Shown here in pieces: positions 8,265-33,081 of a stretch of 33,081 nucleotides of DNA. Numbering within the stretch: position 1 is the first letter of the stretch; each line of letters opens with the position of its first letter. The translations under genes and the position numbers were made by a program. The notes under the pieces were generated by a model. That model had not been told where the DNA came from. It did no database searches and saw nothing but the letters and a program-made list of their open reading frames with translations. This DNA is from Chitinophagales bacterium. Lineage in GTDB: Bacteria > Bacteroidota > Bacteroidia > Chitinophagales > S012-47. Where the stretch lies: contig WFPF01000128.1 of assembly GCA_015487695.1 (NCBI GenBank), positions 1 to 33,081 on the forward strand. Direction: 5' to 3'.

Positions 8265-11200
8265 TTATTGCTGAATAATGATCTTCCTGTTCACTTGTGT
8301 GTTTTTACTTCGAATAATAAGATTGTAGACTCCCGGCCTGAGTCCCGACAAATCCATGTGGTAGCTTTTTCTGTTAAGATTTGATTCTATTTTTTCCGCC
8401 AGCACTCTTCTTCCGGGCAGATCATAAATCTCAATATCCACGGCATCCATCAGAAGTCCCTCATCAGAGCGGATATTCAATGATCCCGAACTGGGTATGG
8501 GATAAACCTGAACAAAGGCACCCGAACATTCTGCAACGCTAAGGTTTGAATAGCTGAAATTGCCGTTATAATCATATTGCTTCAATCGATAATATCTTGG
8601 ACCGGGTATTTCTTCCGGGTCCGTATAACTGTATTGACGTATGTCGGAAGAATTTCCGGCTCCCTTCACTACGGCTATGGTTTCAAAATCAACGGCATTG
8701 ACACTTCGCTCCAAAATGAAATATGCATTATTCCATTCCTGTTCCGTTGTCCATTTTACCAATGTGCTCCGGCCCTGACATTCGGCTGAGAACGCACTTA
8801 AACTTATGGGCAAAATGCTGCTGACCGAACCGCTCAACGCGATCGTAAAGTCACAATCATTGTTGGCAAATCCATCCACAGTAATGTAATAGGTCGTATT
8901 GCCGGGAAGGACCACCGGCCCCCATTGAAAGCGGGCGGTATCTCCGGGATTGTTGCAGTATTCTTCAAAATAATTGGCCGTATCGCAAGCCGGGCCCAGG
9001 AGACGATTGATCGAAACCTGAATGCCATTGTTCGAAGGAGAGCATACGATGTCTTTAAACTCTACAGTCACTACTCCCCCGCTTGCATCCGTGGTAAACT
9101 TATACCACACTGTATTTTCTTTTGTCACAGCGGGACTGCAGCCTGCAAACGCAGGATCCTCTCCCGTTGTCACCGTGGCATGACTGTTTTGGCTGGCCGT
9201 ATTGTTTCCTATCGAAAGGCTTATGGCATTGCTACAATGATCGTTGCAATTGGCCCAGTTTGCCACATCTCCATAGCTCGTATCATTCTCTATCACATCA
9301 TCGGCTATTCCATTTGGATTTTTACACCAAACTTTGACCGTGCTTGTATTTGATGGAACATATACATTGGGAATTACCACACTCTCAGTGGCCCCGTTGA
9401 CGATATTGTAACCCGTGTAGGCTATGGGTCCGGTTACGACACCATCCAAGTCATAATAGAGATCAAAAGAGTTGATTGCCGGGCCGGCCGCACAAGCCAA
9501 TTCATTGTTTTTCAGAGTTATATCCAGCTGATATTGTGATCCATAGCAGCCATTAACGGAGACGGTTCGCAAATCGATATTGGCATCGCTGATACGGAAG
9601 TTATCGAAAGCAAAACGCCCGTATGGATAGCTCGACTGATTATAATACGCCCGGCCGTAGATTCTGAATTTAACGCAACTTTGGCCTGCCAATGAGCATA
9701 GGCTGTGCCTGCGGTTTATCCAGCTGCTTTGTGAGTCCGAAGCAGCCGGTTTGTTTTGCCAACCGTAGCTGCTATTGTACCACAATGAATCGCTTTGAGA
9801 TCCAAGCACACTCCATGTGCTCCCACCGTCAATGGAATATGTGATTCGGAAATAATCAGAAGTATTGAGTGAATACTTAATATCCAATGAGAGCAAAGGA
9901 TTGCTTACTGAGCTGAAATCAAATACCGGACTTTCGACCCAGATATAGGTAGAGGAATTGCTTGCATCTGTCACGGTTCGCCAGCTTTTTCCATGACCTT
10001 CCGGACCGCTTAAGTAAGATGACGGCAAGACGGCATGAACAAAATTTCGTCCATTGTTTAAAGGCGGGACTGAACCTGAGTCGATCCAATAGTCCTGTCC
10101 GCTGTTGAAATCGGCCAAATAGGGATAGCTGCTGATACGCACCTGCTTGACCGTGATCGTTTGACGCAACGTATCGTTGAGCCGGTTAATATCATTGCTC
10201 AAATTTGTGACTACCTCAAAATTGTAACTTCCCGTAGCCGTCATATTTATCGTGGAAGTGAAGGTAAAATGCACCGTATCATTGCTTGGAATATTCACGC
10301 GGATGGTATCGTAAAGAGTCGTATTTAGTGCTCCGCTGATATTGCACGAAACCGGAACATTGCCAATGGCATTGCAACTAAAATTGTACACCGCCACCGT
10401 AATTTTTTCATTTGAGGAATAGAGACAGGGGTCCGGCTGCGGTGAAATAAACACGGTAGGTGCAACCCCATCGCCTTCTTTTATTTGAATGTCATCCAAA
10501 GCCATGCGGGCATATTGCGGATAAGAACTTTGATCATAATACGCCTGGGCATATATCCTCAGCTTGACACAAGCCTGTCCTGCCAGGCTGCAGAGGCTAT
10601 GTTCCACTTTTTTCCACGTAGAAACCGGATTCGGATAGGAATATGACCAGCGATCATTAATATAATTATACCAGCTTGCGTCATTGGTGTTCCCGAGTCT
10701 GCTCCATGTGCTTCCCCCATCTATCGAATATTCCACATAGAAATAATCGCTGGAAGTAAGACTATGCTTGATGAAGAAACTCAAGTTGGGATTGCTCAAA
10801 GTACTGAAATCAAAGACCGGGCTTTCCAGCCATATTTTGGTAGAGCTGATTCCATTGGCGACCACATACCATGAATTCCCCTTGCCTTCCGGTCCATTAA
10901 GATAGCCAGATGGCAAGGCTCCGTAGGTCCAATTGCGCCCGTTGTTCAGCGGAGGGCTTGCACCCGTGTCAATCCAGTATCCGTTGCTGCTGTTAAAGTC
11001 TTCAAAATAAGGATAGCTCGTTATTTTGGGCCGGTCCACCACGATATTTTTCCGCAGCGTATCGTTGCCATTGTATGTATCCCCAAGCAAGGAGCTGTAG
11101 GATGTAAATTGATAGGTTCCCAAGGCAGTCATATCAAAAGTGCCGGGGAAAGTAAAGTGCAATGAGTCACCTGCCGGAATAGGACCTGCAAGCGTGCCGC

Positions 11201-14200
11201 TCAAAGTTACTGTAACCGGGCCGCTCACCTCGCAGCTAAGCGGTACATTTGAAACTGCATTGCAAGTCCAATTATATACCGCCACTTTTACCTGTTGAGC
11301 GGTAGAGAAAAGGCAACCCTGGTCTACGGGTTCAAGGTAGGCGATAACACCTACATCGTTGCCATCTTTTATCTCTATGTTATCAAATGCGATGCGGCTA
11401 TAATTGGGGTAACTTCCCTGATCGTAATAGGACTTCGCCTTAATGCGCAATTTAACACAACTCTGACCTGCCACTACGCAAAGGTTGTGATGCATCTTCG
11501 TCCATATCGTATCCGGATTTGAGTAGGTCAGGGACCAATAGCTGCTATTGTTATACCAATCCGGTTCCGAGCTGCTTCCCAATACAGTCCAGGTACTTCC
11601 CCCATCGGTTGAATATTCCACGCTGACCGGGTCAGACGATGTAAGACTGTGCTTCATATCGAAATAGAGCTGCGGACTGCTCAGCGCACTGAGATCAAAT
11701 ACGGGGCTTTCCACCCATATGTAGGATGACCCTGTGCTGAAATTTTTGGCATACCAGCTCTTGCCGTTGCCGTCACTTCCTCCCAAATACCCGGCCGGAA
11801 CCGTATCATACAGAAAAAGGCGCGTGCTCACCGGTGTGCGCGATACCCAGCCGCCATTGTCACTTTCAAAATCTTCGAGATACGGAAAAGTGGCTATCGG
11901 AATTTGATTAAAGCGGTTCCTTATGACCGTATCATTGCTTCGGTCTTTTTCATTTGACCACGAACTGTAGATTTTTAGAGTATGTGTACCGGTAGCACTC
12001 ATATCCACTCCTGTGGCAAAGGTGTGGATGATTTGGCCGAAGGATGGCAGCGGCCCGGGAATAGTATCATAAACAAAGACACTTCCGTTGAGAGAGAGAA
12101 CAAGAGGTATATTGTACAAATCCCGGCAGCTCTTGTTCAGGACTTCTACCGCAATACTTTCATTGCTACTATATGAAGTGCACGAGCCGGCATCATTGAG
12201 AATGATTTCAGCCATCTCGATGTCTTCATTCTCACCGGCACTAATTCTGAAATCATCAATCGCGGCACGGGAATAGTTTGGATATGCGTTTTGGTCGTAA
12301 TATGCCCGGCCTTCGATTCTGAAAATCACACAAGCTTCCCCTGACAATGAGCAAAGCTCATAATTCACACTGTCCCAAGTGGTTACTGGGCTCGTATAGG
12401 AAGATGCCCAATTGTAGGTCTGATTATACCAGTTGGGGTCGCTGTTGCTGCCCAACGTGCTCCATGTGCTTCCCCCGTCTATCGAATAAAGAACCCGGAC
12501 ATAATCCGAAGCCGTCAAGCTGTGTTTAATCCAAAAACTGAGATTTGGGTTCGTCACATTGCTAAGATCAAAGACCGGACTTTCTATATAGCCTGTCTGC
12601 GAGGAACCCGAAGTGTTGACCATCCTCCAGCTTTCGCCCCTTCCGTCCGGGCCATTTAAGTAGGAAGCAGGCAATGCAGCCCGTTGCCAGAGTTGAAATC
12701 CCGGATTGCTAATCCAACCCCCGTTGCTGGTATTGAAATTCTCATGATACGGGAACGAAATCACTTTGAGGCGGTCTACCAGAATACTTTTTTGAAGAGT
12801 GTCATTGCCCGTATTTACATCCCCCGTCAAAGCGCTCCAGGTGCTGAAGTTGTAGGTGCCGAGCGGAGTCATGTCAAAAGTACCCGGAAAGGTATAATGA
12901 ACCGAATCACCGGCCGGAATGGGGCCCCCAACCGTCCCGTTTAGTGTGGTCGAGGCTGCCCCGCTGACCACACAAGTTACGGGCACATTGCTCACCGGAG
13001 CACAACCCCAATTGTAAACCGCAATTTTTACCTTTTGAGAGGCTGAAAAAAGGCAACCCAGATTTACCGGTTCAATAAGCGCAATCACTCCCACATCCGG
13101 CCCATCCTTGATCTGAACATTGTCAAAGGCAAAGCGGCTGTAATCACTATAAACACTTTGATCATAGTATGCCCGGCCATAAATCCTCAGCTTCACACAC
13201 GAGTTACCTGCTAGTGCACAAAGGCTGTGCTGTACTGCCGTCCATGCACTATCCGGATTGGTATATGTGCTTGCCCAATAATTTGAAGTGTTATACCAGT
13301 TGGGTTCACTTCCGCTTCCCAGTTTTATCCAGCTTGTGCCTCCATCCGTAGAATATTCCACCCAGGTACCGTCCGATCCTGTCAGGCTGTGTTTGTAGTC
13401 AAAATACAACTGAGGGTTGCTCAAAGAAGAGAAATCAAAAACCGGACTTTCGACCCATATATATGAGGCGTTGTTGCCATTGTACGAACTGGCATACCAA
13501 CTCTTGCCTTCTCCCTGACTGCCCGCGAGATAAGGCAATACACCATATTGATAGTGACGGCTTGCGATCGAAGTTCGCGAGACCCATCCTCCGTTGTCCG
13601 TGTTAAAATCTTCTGAATAAGGAAAAGTGCTTATGGGGATCAGGTTGTATCGATTTCGCTCGGCCGTGTCATTGGCTGTATTGATTTCCGAAGCCAGTGA
13701 AGTATAGACCTTGAGGTTGTGTGTGCCGGCAGCACTCATATTAACGGTAGTGGCGAACTGATAAATTAAACGCCCGAATGCCGGAATGGGTCCCGGAATC
13801 GTCTCATCGATCACAGTTCCTCCGTTCAGCTGAAGATGAACAGGGGCATTAAAAATGGGCCGGCAGGTATTGTTTAATAGCAGGGCCGCAATGGTTTCGT
13901 TGCTGCCGTACGAAGCACAATCGCCCGCATCATTTAAAATAATTTCAGCCACCTCAAGGTCATCGCCCCGGCTGGCGCTGATTCGAAAATCATCAAATGC
14001 GGCACGCGAGTAGCCGGGGTAGATATTTTGATCGTAATAGGCCTTTCCGTTTATCCTGAAAATAACACAACTATCACCCGACAGTGAACATAGCTCGTAG
14101 TTCACACTGTCCCAAACGTTTACCGGACTGGTATACGAAGATTTCCACCCACCATTACTATTGTACCAATTCGGATCAGCATTGCTCCCCAGGGTTGCCC

Positions 14201-15428
14201 ATGTGCTGCCGCCATCCGTGGAATAGCTTACCCAAACCAGGTCCGAGTTTGTGAGGCTGTGTTTGATCCAAAAGCTGAGATTTGCCTTGGTTACATTGCG
14301 TAAATCAAATACCGGACTTTCGACCCAAAATACACCGGAGCTGTTGCCCGATTCCGTCCACATTCGCCAACTGCTTCCTCGTCCATCCGGGCCATTGAGA
14401 TACCCTGACGGAAGACTTCCGTATTTCCATTCTCTTTTCTGCCCTGCCATTACGTCATAAGCGCTGTCGTGCCAGCCCCCTTTATTGCTGTTGAAGTCCT
14501 GGTAGTAGGGAAAGGTTGTTACATTGCGTTGAATACTTGTCTCAAAGGTGTCATTGCCAAGATATTGATCTCCGGGGAGCGCAGAATATATTTTAAAGAC
14601 ATAAACGGCCTCTGCTGACATATCAAAACTGCCGCTAAAGGTAAAAACGACCGAGGCACCGCTTGCAATCGGACCGGATACATTTCCGGTCAGTGTAGCG
14701 CTTGTTCCGCCACTGATCTCACAGGTAACGGGAATATTTGAGATGGAACTTACACCTTCATTTTTAATCCTGATACTGACACTTTGTGTGCTGCTATACG
14801 AGTTGCTGCAATCCGGCCAGGATGGGGTCAACAGCCGGGTGACGCTCGCGTCATTGTCTGCATAAATTCGTATATCGTCCAGGTACCAGTATTTTCCCGT
14901 TTGCCCTCCGTCTGTGTAACGAAAACGTACTTTCACATCCGTTTGCCCCGCTGCCCAGCTGCTGATATCCAAGGTGGTATCCTGCGGAGCGGACAGGCTG
15001 CCTTTGCTAACCTTCTCATAGTCAAAAATGGTTGTCCAGGAACTGCCTCCATCGCTACTGACTTCTACATAGCCATGAGTAAACTCAACACCAAACCAAT
15101 GATGCACATAATTGAGATAGACACCCGTGCGTCCGCTGCAATTAAAAGAAGGTGTGATAAGATCGGATTCATTGGGGGTGGTGGCAGCCCCGAGGGATTC
15201 ATCGTCAAACACCGCATAATAGCCACCCGAGGTACTTGAAAATGCCGGAGTGTTTCGAATCAACCAGGTAGCCGAGCCCTGTATGGCTGTAGTGCTCCAA
15301 CCCGCTGGCATGCTTCCACCGGCAAAATCTTCATCAATCAATATGTCCGCAAAGAGATTGAATTGCAGAAAAAGAAGAACAGGAAGAAAACCTATTCGAA
15401 TAATGTACTTAATTCGGTTAAGAGGCAT
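8265..15428 (-). CDS. Giant modular T9SS-secreted protein (2387 residues)
   Basis: An exported multi-domain protein, probably attached to the surface or released through the type IX secretion system. A signal peptide (residues ~1-27, IRIGFLPVLLFLQFNLFA) is followed by a jelly-roll domain of choice-of-anchor J type (DEDFAGGSMPAGW) and a CARDB/Ig-like domain. Six tandem units of about 290 residues start near residues 303, 600, 889, 1178, 1469 and 1765. Each opens with (F/Y)PYxxxFN...W, contains WVESPVFD, YSxDGGSTW and YYDQxxYPxYSR, and ends in an Ig-like part rich in paired cysteines. The C-terminal third holds a domain with ENTVWYKFTTDASGG, then LPISLSAFSAECQG...TEQEWNNAYFILERS, and last a type A sorting domain: VQVYPIPSSGSLNIRS to NRKIIIQQ. 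Jelly-roll domains of this kind often bind carbohydrate or mediate adhesion; the ligand is unknown. It stands alone on its strand. Confidence 0.9.
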   Translation of the reverse strand: MPLNRIKYIIRIGFLPVLLFLQFNLFADILIDEDFAGGSMPAGWSTTAIQGSATWLIRNTPAFSSTSGGYYAVFDDESLGAATTPNESDLITPSFNCSGRTGVYLNYVHHWFGVEFTHGYVEVSSDGGSSWTTIFDYEKVSKGSLSAPQDTTLDISSWAAGQTDVKVRFRYTDGGQTGKYWYLDDIRIYADNDASVTRLLTPSWPDCSNSYSSTQSVSIRIKNEGVSSISNIPVTCEISGGTSATLTGNVSGPIASGASVVFTFSGSFDMSAEAVYVFKIYSALPGDQYLGNDTFETSIQRNVTTFPYYQDFNSNKGGWHDSAYDVMAGQKREWKYGSLPSGYLNGPDGRGSSWRMWTESGNSSGVFWVESPVFDLRNVTKANLSFWIKHSLTNSDLVWVSYSTDGGSTWATLGSNADPNWYNSNGGWKSSYTSPVNVWDSVNYELCSLSGDSCVIFRINGKAYYDQNIYPGYSRAAFDDFRISASRGDDLEVAEIILNDAGDCASYGSNETIAALLLNNTCRPIFNAPVHLQLNGGTVIDETIPGPIPAFGRLIYQFATTVNMSAAGTHNLKVYTSLASEINTANDTAERNRYNLIPISTFPYSEDFNTDNGGWVSRTSIASRHYQYGVLPYLAGSQGEGKSWYASSYNGNNASYIWVESPVFDFSSLSNPQLYFDYKHSLTGSDGTWVEYSTDGGTSWIKLGSGSEPNWYNTSNYWASTYTNPDSAWTAVQHSLCALAGNSCVKLRIYGRAYYDQSVYSDYSRFAFDNVQIKDGPDVGVIALIEPVNLGCLFSASQKVKIAVYNWGCAPVSNVPVTCVVSGAASTTLNGTVGGPIPAGDSVHYTFPGTFDMTPLGTYNFSTWSALTGDVNTGNDTLQKSILVDRLKVISFPYHENFNTSNGGWISNPGFQLWQRAALPASYLNGPDGRGESWRMVNTSGSSQTGYIESPVFDLSNVTNPNLSFWIKHSLTASDYVRVLYSIDGGSTWSTLGSNSDPNWYNQTYNWASSYTSPVTTWDSVNYELCSLSGEACVIFRIEGRAYYDQNAYPNYSRAAIDDFRISAGENEDIEMAEIILNDAGSCTSYSSNESIAVEVLNKSCRDLYNIPLVLSLNGSVFVYDTIPGPLPSFGQIIHTFATGVDMSATGTHTLKIYSSWSNEKDRSNDTVIRNRFNQIPIATFPYLEDFESDNGGWVSRTPVSTRLFLYDTVPAGYLGGSDGNGKSWYAKNFSTGSSYIWVESPVFDLSALSSPQLYFDMKHSLTSSDPVSVEYSTDGGSTWTVLGSSSEPDWYNNSSYWSLTYSNPDTIWTKMHHNLCVVAGQSCVKLRIKAKSYYDQGSYPNYSRIAFDNIEIKDGNDVGVIAYLEPVDQGCLFSTAQQVKVAVYNWTCNAVSNVPLSCEVSGPVTVTLSGTLAGPIPAGDSLHFTFPGTFDMTALGTYQFTSYSSLLGDTYNGNDTLRKNIVVDRPKITSYPYFEDFNSSNGYWIDTGASPPLNNGRNWTYGALPSGYLNGPEGKGNSWYVVANGISSTKIWLESPVFDFSTLSNPNLSFFIKHSLTSSDYFYVEYSIDGGSTWSRLGNTNDASWYNYINDRWSYSYPNPVSTWKKVEHSLCSLAGQACVKLRIYAQAYYDQSSYPQYARMALDDIQIKEGDGVAPTVFISPQPDPCLYSSNEKITVAVYNFSCNAIGNVPVSCNISGALNTTLYDTIRVNIPSNDTVHFTFTSTINMTATGSYNFEVVTNLSNDINRLNDTLRQTITVKQVRISSYPYLADFNSGQDYWIDSGSVPPLNNGRNFVHAVLPSSYLSGPEGHGKSWRTVTDASNSSTYIWVESPVFDFSSVSNPLLSLDIKYSLNTSDYFRITYSIDGGSTWSVLGSQSDSLWYNSSYGWQNKPAASDSQSSWINRRHSLCSLAGQSCVKFRIYGRAYYNQSSYPYGRFAFDNFRISDANIDLRTVSVNGCYGSQYQLDITLKNNELACAAGPAINSFDLYYDLDGVVTGPIAYTGYNIVNGATESVVIPNVYVPSNTSTVKVWCKNPNGIADDVIENDTSYGDVANWANCNDHCSNAISLSIGNNTASQNSHATVTTGEDPAFAGCSPAVTKENTVWYKFTTDASGGVVTVEFKDIVCSPSNNGIQVSINRLLGPACDTANYFEEYCNNPGDTARFQWGPVVLPGNTTYYITVDGFANNDCDFTIALSGSVSSILPISLSAFSAECQGRSTLVKWTTEQEWNNAYFILERSVNAVDFETIAVVKGAGNSSDIRQYSYTDPEEIPGPRYYRLKQYDYNGNFSYSNLSVAECSGAFVQVYPIPSSGSLNIRSDEGLLMDAVDIEIYDLPGRRVLAEKIESNLNRKSYHMDLSGLRPGVYNLIIRSKNTQVNRKIIIQQ
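9590..14523 (-). repeat. Six coding tandem repeats of about 870-890 bases
   Basis: Inside the giant gene, repeat units begin near 14520, 13631, 12762, 11895, 11022 and 10133 on the minus strand, with steps of 889, 869, 867, 873 and 889 bases. By protein sequence they fall in three types. Units 1 and 3 share VAEIILNDAG-like or MAEIILNDAG-like linkers. Units 2 and 4 share DVGVIA...EPV...GCLFS. Units 5 and 6 share PPLNNGRN near their start. The order is A-B-A-B-C-C, implying duplication of a two-unit block. Confidence 0.9.
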
Positions 15429-31927: not shown

Positions 31928-31968
31928 AAAGCTGCGGGGCATATCATGCCACCCGGAAAGAAAAAAAA

Positions 31969-32063
31969 GGGCAAGAACCCACATCACACCGCTACGACCA
32001 CCTACCCTTGCTACCTTCCGGTCCTGGGGGATTCAGCAGGAGCTGGTTGCGTGAGCCTTGCCC
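31969..32063 (-). ncRNA. ffs: Signal recognition particle RNA (4.5S, small bacterial type)
   Basis: Read on the minus strand, this 95-base RNA starts GGGCAAGGCTCAC and ends GTGGGTTCTTGCCC, so its ends pair to form the long SRP hairpin. In the middle is the universally conserved apical part CAGGACCGGAAGGTAGCA, with the GGAA tetraloop and the asymmetric internal loop that bind Ffh; the E. coli 4.5S equivalent is CAGGTCCGGAAGGAAGCA. It lacks the Alu domain, as expected outside Firmicutes and similar groups. The 3' end runs straight into TTTTTTTTCTTT (minus strand 31968-31957), so the hairpin plus T-run acts as its own terminator. A perfect -7 box lies five bases before the first G. Confidence 0.95.
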
Positions 32064-32068
32064 GGCTG

Positions 32069-32076
32069 CAAAATTA
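32069..32076 (-). promoter_or_regulatory. -7 promoter box (TAATTTTG) for the SRP RNA
   Basis: On the minus strand TAATTTTG is a perfect -7 box ending five bases before the first paired base of the SRP RNA. A TTTC (32099-32096), 19 bases upstream, is a one-mismatch -33 element. This is the best-calibrated promoter in the window because the RNA 5' end can be judged from base pairing. Confidence 0.8.
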
Positions 32077-32618: not shown

Positions 32619-32674
32619 TTTCTCTTACTTTCTTAATGAAAAGGCCGCGATTCCCTGACCGGCCGTGCGATGTG

Positions 32675-32682
32675 CAAACCTA
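32675..32682 (-). promoter_or_regulatory. -7 promoter box (TAGGTTTG) for the FKBP gene
   Basis: On the minus strand TAGGTTTG is a perfect TAnnTTTG, about 57 bases before ATG 32618. No clear -33 element. It marks the left boundary of the repeat-rich block. Confidence 0.5.
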
Positions 32683-32893
32683 ATTGTTTTGCCGGGGAAA
32701 AAGAATTGCACAGAGCAGCTTCTTAAACACTGCATGCCCGGAGACCGGGACGCTCATAGCAGCGTCATATGGCTTTTTTATCGGGATTTTTGAAAGGGTG
32801 TCAGCCTGAGCCCTGACGCTCGCTCCGGTCGGTCTGGACTTCGCCCTGACGCTCGCGATGCGCGCGCATCTTCGAAAGCTGTCATGCAGAGTA

Positions 32894-32918
32894 GTCCCGA
32901 TGATCCTTTCATCGGGAC
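32894..32918. repeat. Perfect 10-pair hairpin in the repeat block
   Basis: GTCCCGATGA (32894-32903) pairs perfectly with TCATCGGGAC (32909-32918) around a TCCTT loop. There is no T-run and no adjacent gene end, so it is not a normal terminator. It lies between the two ATCTTCGAAAGC copies. Confidence 0.85.
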
Positions 32919-32924
32919 GTATCG

Positions 32925-32952
32925 TCCCGGTGCTCATTCCACTCGACCGGGA
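32925..32952. repeat. Variable-stem element 1 (loop GCTCATTCCACTCG)
   Basis: TCCCGGT (32925-32931) pairs with ACCGGGA (32946-32952) around a 14-base loop. The loop closely matches that of the element at 33048-33075, although the stems differ. Confidence 0.8.
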
Positions 32953-33010
32953 TCTTCGAAAGCATGCTTGAACTACTATGTTTTTCTTGATTTGTCTATC
33001 CTTTGGAACA

Positions 33011-33038
33011 TTCCGAACGAGCACAGCGAGCTTCGGAA
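33011..33038. repeat. Variable-stem element 2 (inverted orientation)
   Basis: TTCCGAA (33011-33017) pairs with TTCGGAA (33032-33038). The 14-base loop is CGAGCACAGCGAGC, whose reverse complement GCTCGCTGTGCTCG fits the GCTC...CTCG pattern, so this copy points the other way. Confidence 0.75.
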
Positions 33039-33047
33039 CGATAAACT

Positions 33048-33075
33048 CCCTGACGCTCATTTCATTCGGTCAGGG
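33048..33075. repeat. Variable-stem element 3 (loop GCTCATTTCATTCG)
   Basis: CCCTGAC (33048-33054) pairs with GTCAGGG (33069-33075) around a 14-base loop that differs from that of element 1 at two positions. Its left arm and the start of its loop recur at 32811 and 32844. Confidence 0.8.
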
Positions 33076-33081
33076 CAAAGC

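Follow-up and report, generated by a model that had tools for sequence, protein, structure and literature searches.

An array of short hairpins in the last 300 bp of a contig raises the question of how inverted repeats can exchange their stems while their tip stays the same. The window analysed here is that whole contig (C128) of 33,081 nucleotides, which belongs to a 2.77-Mb, 137-contig Bacteroidota (Chitinophagales) MAG, coded G000. An FKBP-type isomerase is encoded on the minus strand, and the array lies upstream of its gene. What are these hairpins, do they occur elsewhere, and what could keep the tip fixed?

Hairpins and enclosing palindromes in the window

As a preliminary description of this DNA had claimed, three perfect hairpins with 7-bp stems and 14-nt loops are found at 32925-32952, 33011-33038 and 33048-33075. 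They share one loop pattern, and the middle one is inverted relative to the others, lying on the other strand. When 32641-33081 was shuffled 2000 times with dinucleotides preserved, the mean number of such hairpins was 0.03 and three were never reached. Loops of 14 nt are also over-represented in DNA fetched from G000: 27 hairpins have this loop length, while each other length has about 6. The motif had, however, guided the choice of these loci.

Read on the purine strand, copy 1 (TCCCGGT-CGAGTGGAATGAGC-ACCGGGA, triloop GGA) and copy 3 (CCCTGAC-CGAATGAAATGAGC-GTCAGGG, triloop GAA, inner pairs A-T/T-A) lie on the minus strand, and copy 2 (TTCCGAA-CGAGCACAGCGAGC-TTCGGAA, triloop ACA) on the plus strand. 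A covariance model, R1, was built from 25 distinct copies and then used for genome-wide searches; it scored copies 1, 2 and 3 at 38.7, 39.9 and 43.3 bits. Together with the tail TGGAACA, copy 2 forms a 35-bp unit at 33004-33038 (+), delimited by the filled and empty tips of paralogous outer hairpins. A fourth copy had been reported as degenerate at 32813-32832. It is present, but as a full-length 28-nt member at 32811-32838 on the minus strand (TCCAGAC-CGACCGGAGCGAGC-GTCAGGG; R1 38.1 bits, E 4e-8; recovered also in the genome-wide search), with two outer positions and one inner pair mispaired.

Larger palindromes surround these hairpins. A TGTC-tagged palindrome, TGTCATGC ... GCATGCTTGAAC, spans 32880-32973 (+) and encloses two hairpins; uninterrupted versions occur elsewhere in G000, for example TGTCATGTTGAGCCTGTCGAAACATGCTTGAAC in C44. 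The left arm (GATTTGTCTATCCTT) of a second TGTC-type palindrome and its enclosed hairpins occupy 32989-33081 (+), where the contig end cuts them off, and complete copies ending in ...GACAAATC are found in C46, C27 and C131. A simple 10-bp hairpin with a plain 5-nt loop, GTCCCGATGA-TCCTT-TCATCGGGAC, lies at 32894-32918 and matches R1 weakly on both strands (17.3 and 16.7 bits). Its arm is of the TCCCGAT type found in the family and the conserved apex is absent; judged by its sequence, it may be an apex-less relative or a degenerate form of the 28-nt unit.

No Rfam match to the hairpins was obtained. Rfam gave only the Bacteroidales small SRP RNA (RF04183, E 2.9e-20) upstream at 31965-32070 (-), between the transaldolase and FKBP genes. 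Elsewhere in the window, 8265-15428 (-) encodes a secreted protein of 2387 aa; it contains Reelin-like and MAM domains and carries a type IX sorting tail (Por_Secre_tail).

Pairing inside the conserved tip

On the purine strand, the unit reads arm7-C-GA-GC-GNA-GC-GA-G-C-arm7'. In the 25 distinct copies, 95.6% of cells are paired and eight of ten pairs have changed on both sides, counts that are only partly corrected for relatedness among the copies. The covariation score was reached by none of 500 shuffles. The seven outer pairs are nearly always paired, five of them having changed on both sides and two never varying. Changes on both sides were observed at three inner pairs as well, namely 8-20 (CG/UG/AU/UA), 11-17 (GC/AU/GU) and 12-16 (CG/UA/UG). 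Because these three pairs co-vary inside it, the 14-base loop is not open. Hence the earlier view of co-varying arms around a conserved tip is upheld by the pair counts, while that of an open loop of conserved sequence has to be given up. Compensatory changes keep the stem paired, as in REP-like repeats in the broad sense. An alternative inner register, with the bulge on the 5' side, is compatible with the sequence but shows no double changes at its inner pairs and was rejected.

The triloop is GNA in 20 of the 25 distinct copies, with A closing it in most, and the bulge position is C in 21. Both GA dinucleotides are invariant in the 25 aligned copies, which was partly a selection criterion of that set; two copies with one GA altered were found in the 14-nt-loop survey of fetched DNA. 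On either side of the core, 22 of 25 copies have a Py-GA-Pu step, a context in which tandem sheared G.A pairs are favoured in DNA. Some copies carry A-T or G-T inner pairs instead of the GC type. In a shorter variant, CCTGAC-CGAAGC-GTCAGG, the tandem GA and two pairs are gone, while C(GAA)G and the bulged C are retained. On the purine strand, the apex consistent with these features would have a bulged C and a single pair, then tandem G.A mismatches of putative sheared geometry and two further pairs, and would end in a GNA triloop.

The purine strand carries 11 G.T wobbles against 5 A.C, an excess that is a modest sign that this is the folding strand. Under standard DNA parameters, which may not credit sheared G.A pairs or GNA loops, the folds of the two strands are not clearly separated, with little advantage for the purine strand. 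The unit also folds well under RNA parameters; for a GC-type copy z is -3.3 and the purine strand is favoured.

The stems had been called unrelated, which proved wrong. Positions 3 and 5 do not vary among the 25 distinct copies. Seven arm types are fully paired; all share C3 and G5, and they form two chains in which each link is a single compensated step. One joins CCCTGAC to CCCTGAT and to TCCTGAC; the other runs TCCCGGT-TCCCGAT-TTCCGAT-TTCCGAA. Template switching in replication is known to homogenise inverted-repeat arms (PMC8604942) and to perfect inverted repeats (PMC8604942, PMC8794818). As this is a known cause of arms changing in step, no templating enzyme is needed. Of the proposal of a mobile or templated element, we retain that the element is repeated and probably mobile.

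A dispersed family restricted to one genus

The R1 search found 31 copies in G000 and 18 in the same-genus relative G001, and a further 118 genomes from the order had 0-1 apiece; copy counts derive from the genome searches and the fetched stretches. Related arrays were recovered by DNA search on many G000 contigs, mostly at contig ends. A contig end is no more than 810 bp away for 23 of 30 copies, where 8% would be expected (binomial p 7e-20, only indicative since the copies cluster and are not independent), so the arrays look like assembly breakers. Of the G000 copies checked, none falls within a convincing ORF. The only overlaps are with short frames open at a contig start and with a 126-aa frame spanning the window array, which is probably spurious. 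A genome-wide count of copies with complementary arms and an intergenic bias had both been named as ways to check the preliminary description, and both came out in its favour.

Dispersed, multi-copy and intergenic, these short palindromes are REP-like repeats in the broad sense. Their family, which includes the three hairpins of the window, is specific to the genus and consists of 28-nt hairpins in 35- or 38-bp units. At the window's own locus, the array was not found in G001, where homology beside the FKBP gene ends near 32646. At the C21/C23 locus, an array stands at the same position in both genomes with different content, which shows turnover in place, not movement. Within G000, the array stretch that includes 32989-33081 is 95% identical over about 238 bp between C128 and C131. 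The G001 arrays (L133, L134, L137, L138) are flanked by long near-tandem runs of ACCAACC/AATCACC (or GGTTGGTGATT).

Filled and empty tips

Outer palindromes of the form TGTC-AYNCT-GAGC-TTG-TCGA-AGNRT (e.g. GATTTGTC...GACAAATC and GCTGTCATGC...GCATGCTTGAAC) occur both empty and filled. The empty outer tip reads ATCCTT^CGACAAGCTCAGGAT in C44 and C50. The same tip is filled with exactly 35 nt by TGGAACA+28 (G001 C46, C94), by TGGCACA+28 (C50) and by TCGAAGA+28 (C96), so that at least three different 35-nt inserts stand against the empty CCTT^CGACAAGCTC. The unit itself can be filled as well: TCCCGA^TTGAGCGCAGCG is empty in C50 (TCCCGA^TTGAGCG), whereas C75 has TCCCGA-(CAAAACACTG+28)-TTGAGCGCAGCG, an insert of exactly 38 nt.

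At the compared paralogous sites, no target duplication was seen at the 35-nt and 38-nt inserts. Copies appear to have been cleanly inserted inside one another. For the 35- and 38-bp units we favour insertion over precise deletion, which could also have given these sites because the presence/absence pairs are paralogues.

Search for a linked Y1 transposase

The preliminary description had advised looking for a RAYT-like transposase elsewhere in the genome. One Y1 gene is present, but it is not linked to the hairpins. This sole PF01797 (Y1, HUH transposase-like) gene of G000 lies in C30 (L061 280-708, minus strand) and carries the motifs DHVH and YIRNQEEHH. Its flanking hairpins, CCCTGCCC-TTTA-GGGCAGGG and ACTCCGCCC-TGAA-GGGCGGAGT, are different from R1. 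The second motif is like that of subclass 1.2 and not the YIxxNP of the REP-linked classes, and TnpA-Y1 genes of subclass 1.2 generally have no flanking structures (PMC6006769).

The R1 model gave no match at 30 Y1 loci, and only one paired core was found near 60 Y1 loci. A GT[AG]G foot accompanies the hairpin in 1 of 36 contexts. PF01797 had no match in the congener G001, in G121 (one contig, 100% complete, about 200 cores) or in G124 (one contig, 99% complete, about 97 cores). A RAYT/REP system using G000's own Y1 gene was therefore rejected, since other hairpins flank that gene and no tested Y1 locus has R1 hairpins. Many Chitinophagales Y1 genes (e.g. L095, L097, L102, L103, L107, L108) have distinct hairpin families of their own on their flanks, often with 4-nt loops (such as TTAA, TGAA or ATGC), and the family differs from genome to genome.

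Proposed mechanism and rival explanations

The best reading of these data is a new, genus-specific variant of REP-like mobile palindromes, in which the apex would be the conserved recognition structure. The unit would work as single-stranded DNA. When exposed, for example in replication, the purine strand would fold into a stem capped by the fixed apex set out above, with the tandem G.A pairs sheared. This apex would be recognised by an enzyme acting in trans, a putative nuclease or transposase that is probably not a Y1 enzyme. By placing units in the apical loops of palindromes already present, the enzyme would build nested arrays. With recognition resting on the apex, all that the arms would have to do is remain complementary. 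They would drift, and template switching between them in replication would restore pairing, so that the arms would change in step while the tip stays fixed. We infer both that an enzyme reads the apex as single-stranded DNA and that it is not a Y1 transposase; for this model as a whole, we see the balance of belief and doubt as even, and the modest strand preference counts against it. The broader proposal, that Bacteroidota harbor a transposition system not based on a Y1 HUH enzyme, which reads the three-dimensional tip of a single-stranded hairpin (bulged C, tandem G.A, GNA cap), inserts small units into resident tips and so builds nested arrays, is offered as a speculation that is probably not correct.

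The main rival is passive spread by recombination and template switching, with no dedicated enzyme. Arrays would then multiply through recombination, through duplication of whole arrays and through replication slippage or template switching at hairpins; this last would create, homogenise and nest inverted repeats. The rival would fit with the missing Y1 linkage and with the single-contig, near-complete G121, which is rich in similar cores and has no PF01797 match, and array-level duplication predicts the 95% identity of C128 and C131. The effect of template switching on inverted repeats, described in the sources cited above, points the same way. However, slippage alone leaves unexplained why 31 dispersed copies have the same apex fold, and why clean 35-bp units with different arms and tails sit at one defined tip position. 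We regard passive spread as possible, though rather unlikely. Selection on a transcribed RNA, in which the purine strand would be a hairpin at mRNA ends serving stability, termination or protein binding, could also keep the apex. The good RNA fold and the excess of G.T wobbles agree with this, and REPs are often transcribed (PMC3733652). On the other hand, both orientations occur within one array, no Rfam family matches, and the congener yielded no array at the corresponding locus. In most copies no T-run directly follows the 3' arm in the flanks of the 28-nt units, so the hairpins are not intrinsic terminators, and overall an RNA element seems distinctly improbable.

Mobilisation by a RAYT/TnpA-Y1 transposase, as for GTAG-REPs, is very unlikely. 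The general likeness is there (a single-stranded hairpin with a bulge, intergenic position, tail plus hairpin, inverted pairs in the broader family), and so is the one Y1 gene in G000. That gene nevertheless has a subclass-1.2-like motif and different flanking hairpins, the congener has no Y1 match, and neither the Y1 loci surveyed nor the foot contexts tie the family to such an enzyme. Chance or a purely local duplication can draw on the facts that the window ends inside the array and that C131 has a 95% copy. The genome-wide count of 31 copies, on many contigs and with different arms, and the shuffles, which reach neither three hairpins nor the observed covariation, leave it with a negligible probability.

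Comparison with known repeat systems

Hairpins with a core GAGC-GNA-G(T)CGA, TGTC/CGTC tags and variable stems are abundant across Bacteroidota. In G186 the core pattern matches 326 times and its reversed form 15 times; in G121 the counts are 201 and 2. The G186 cores often form inverted pairs about 60-70 bp apart. By description, these phylum-wide hairpins, with the tagged core TGTC/CGTC-AYNCT-GAGC-GNA-G(T)CGA, match the CGTC/TGTC REP superfamily. According to Di Nocera, De Gregorio and Rocco (2013, PMC3733652), this superfamily consists of small intergenic palindromes with heterogeneous stems, reported also from Bacteroidetes and with no dedicated transposase. The preliminary description had contrasted the hairpins with REP elements as repeats that keep the stem and vary the loop. 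A difference does exist, but only of degree: the phylum-wide cores of TGTC/CGTC-REP type also keep the core and vary the stem.

The 28-nt unit carries an unpaired YGTC (CGTC/TGTC) tag in none of 36 contexts, on either strand, and the tag is present on the enclosing outer hairpins and the phylum-wide relatives. CGTC/TGTC-REPs have an 8-9 bp stem beginning with AT, a 4-5-nt loop and a CCA-like tail, whereas the 28-nt units have 7-bp arms beginning with C or T and a structured 14-nt apex. The units also cluster and nest, while clusters are rare for CGTC elements according to PMC3733652. As the tag and the 8-9 bp stem are absent, we file the 28-nt unit as REP-like and not as a CGTC-REP member. For neither is a dedicated transposase known, as judged for the 28-nt units on Y1 genes.

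GTAG-REPs and REPINs with their RAYT are likewise hairpin repeats, often in inverted pairs, that are read as single-stranded DNA in the accepted model. Unlike them, the 28-nt units have no GTAG foot and no linked Y1 gene, and their conserved part is the tip, not the foot. The Bacteroidetes TnpA-Y1 subclasses 2.6, with "atypical secondary structures", and 1.2 (PMC6006769) come from the same phylum, and the G000 Y1 protein resembles subclass 1.2 by motif; R1 hairpins, however, flank none of the Y1 genes examined. A search of the open-access literature for the core sequence, for nested repeats and for loop-conserved repeats gave nothing relevant. To our knowledge, neither integron attC sites nor CRISPR keeps the tip while the arms vary, and both were set aside on this general ground.

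CGTC-type REPs are an orphan class without a known mover. In the present family, what is conserved for recognition seems to be a structured tip and not a tag at the foot. This tip, the clean 35- and 38-bp boundaries with empty sites, and core-rich, near-complete genomes that have no Y1 match together make a search for the missing enzyme directly testable; with the same resources, proof that no enzyme is needed is directly testable as well. A conserved loop can thus be a folded DNA motif. As DNA, mini-hairpins of the d(GCGAAGC)/GNA type have exceptional stability (Hirao, Yoshizawa and co-workers; in PMC4686876), and the inner GC-GNA-GC of GC-type copies is exactly this motif. Known as a synthetic and structural motif, it would here cap a natural repeat family.
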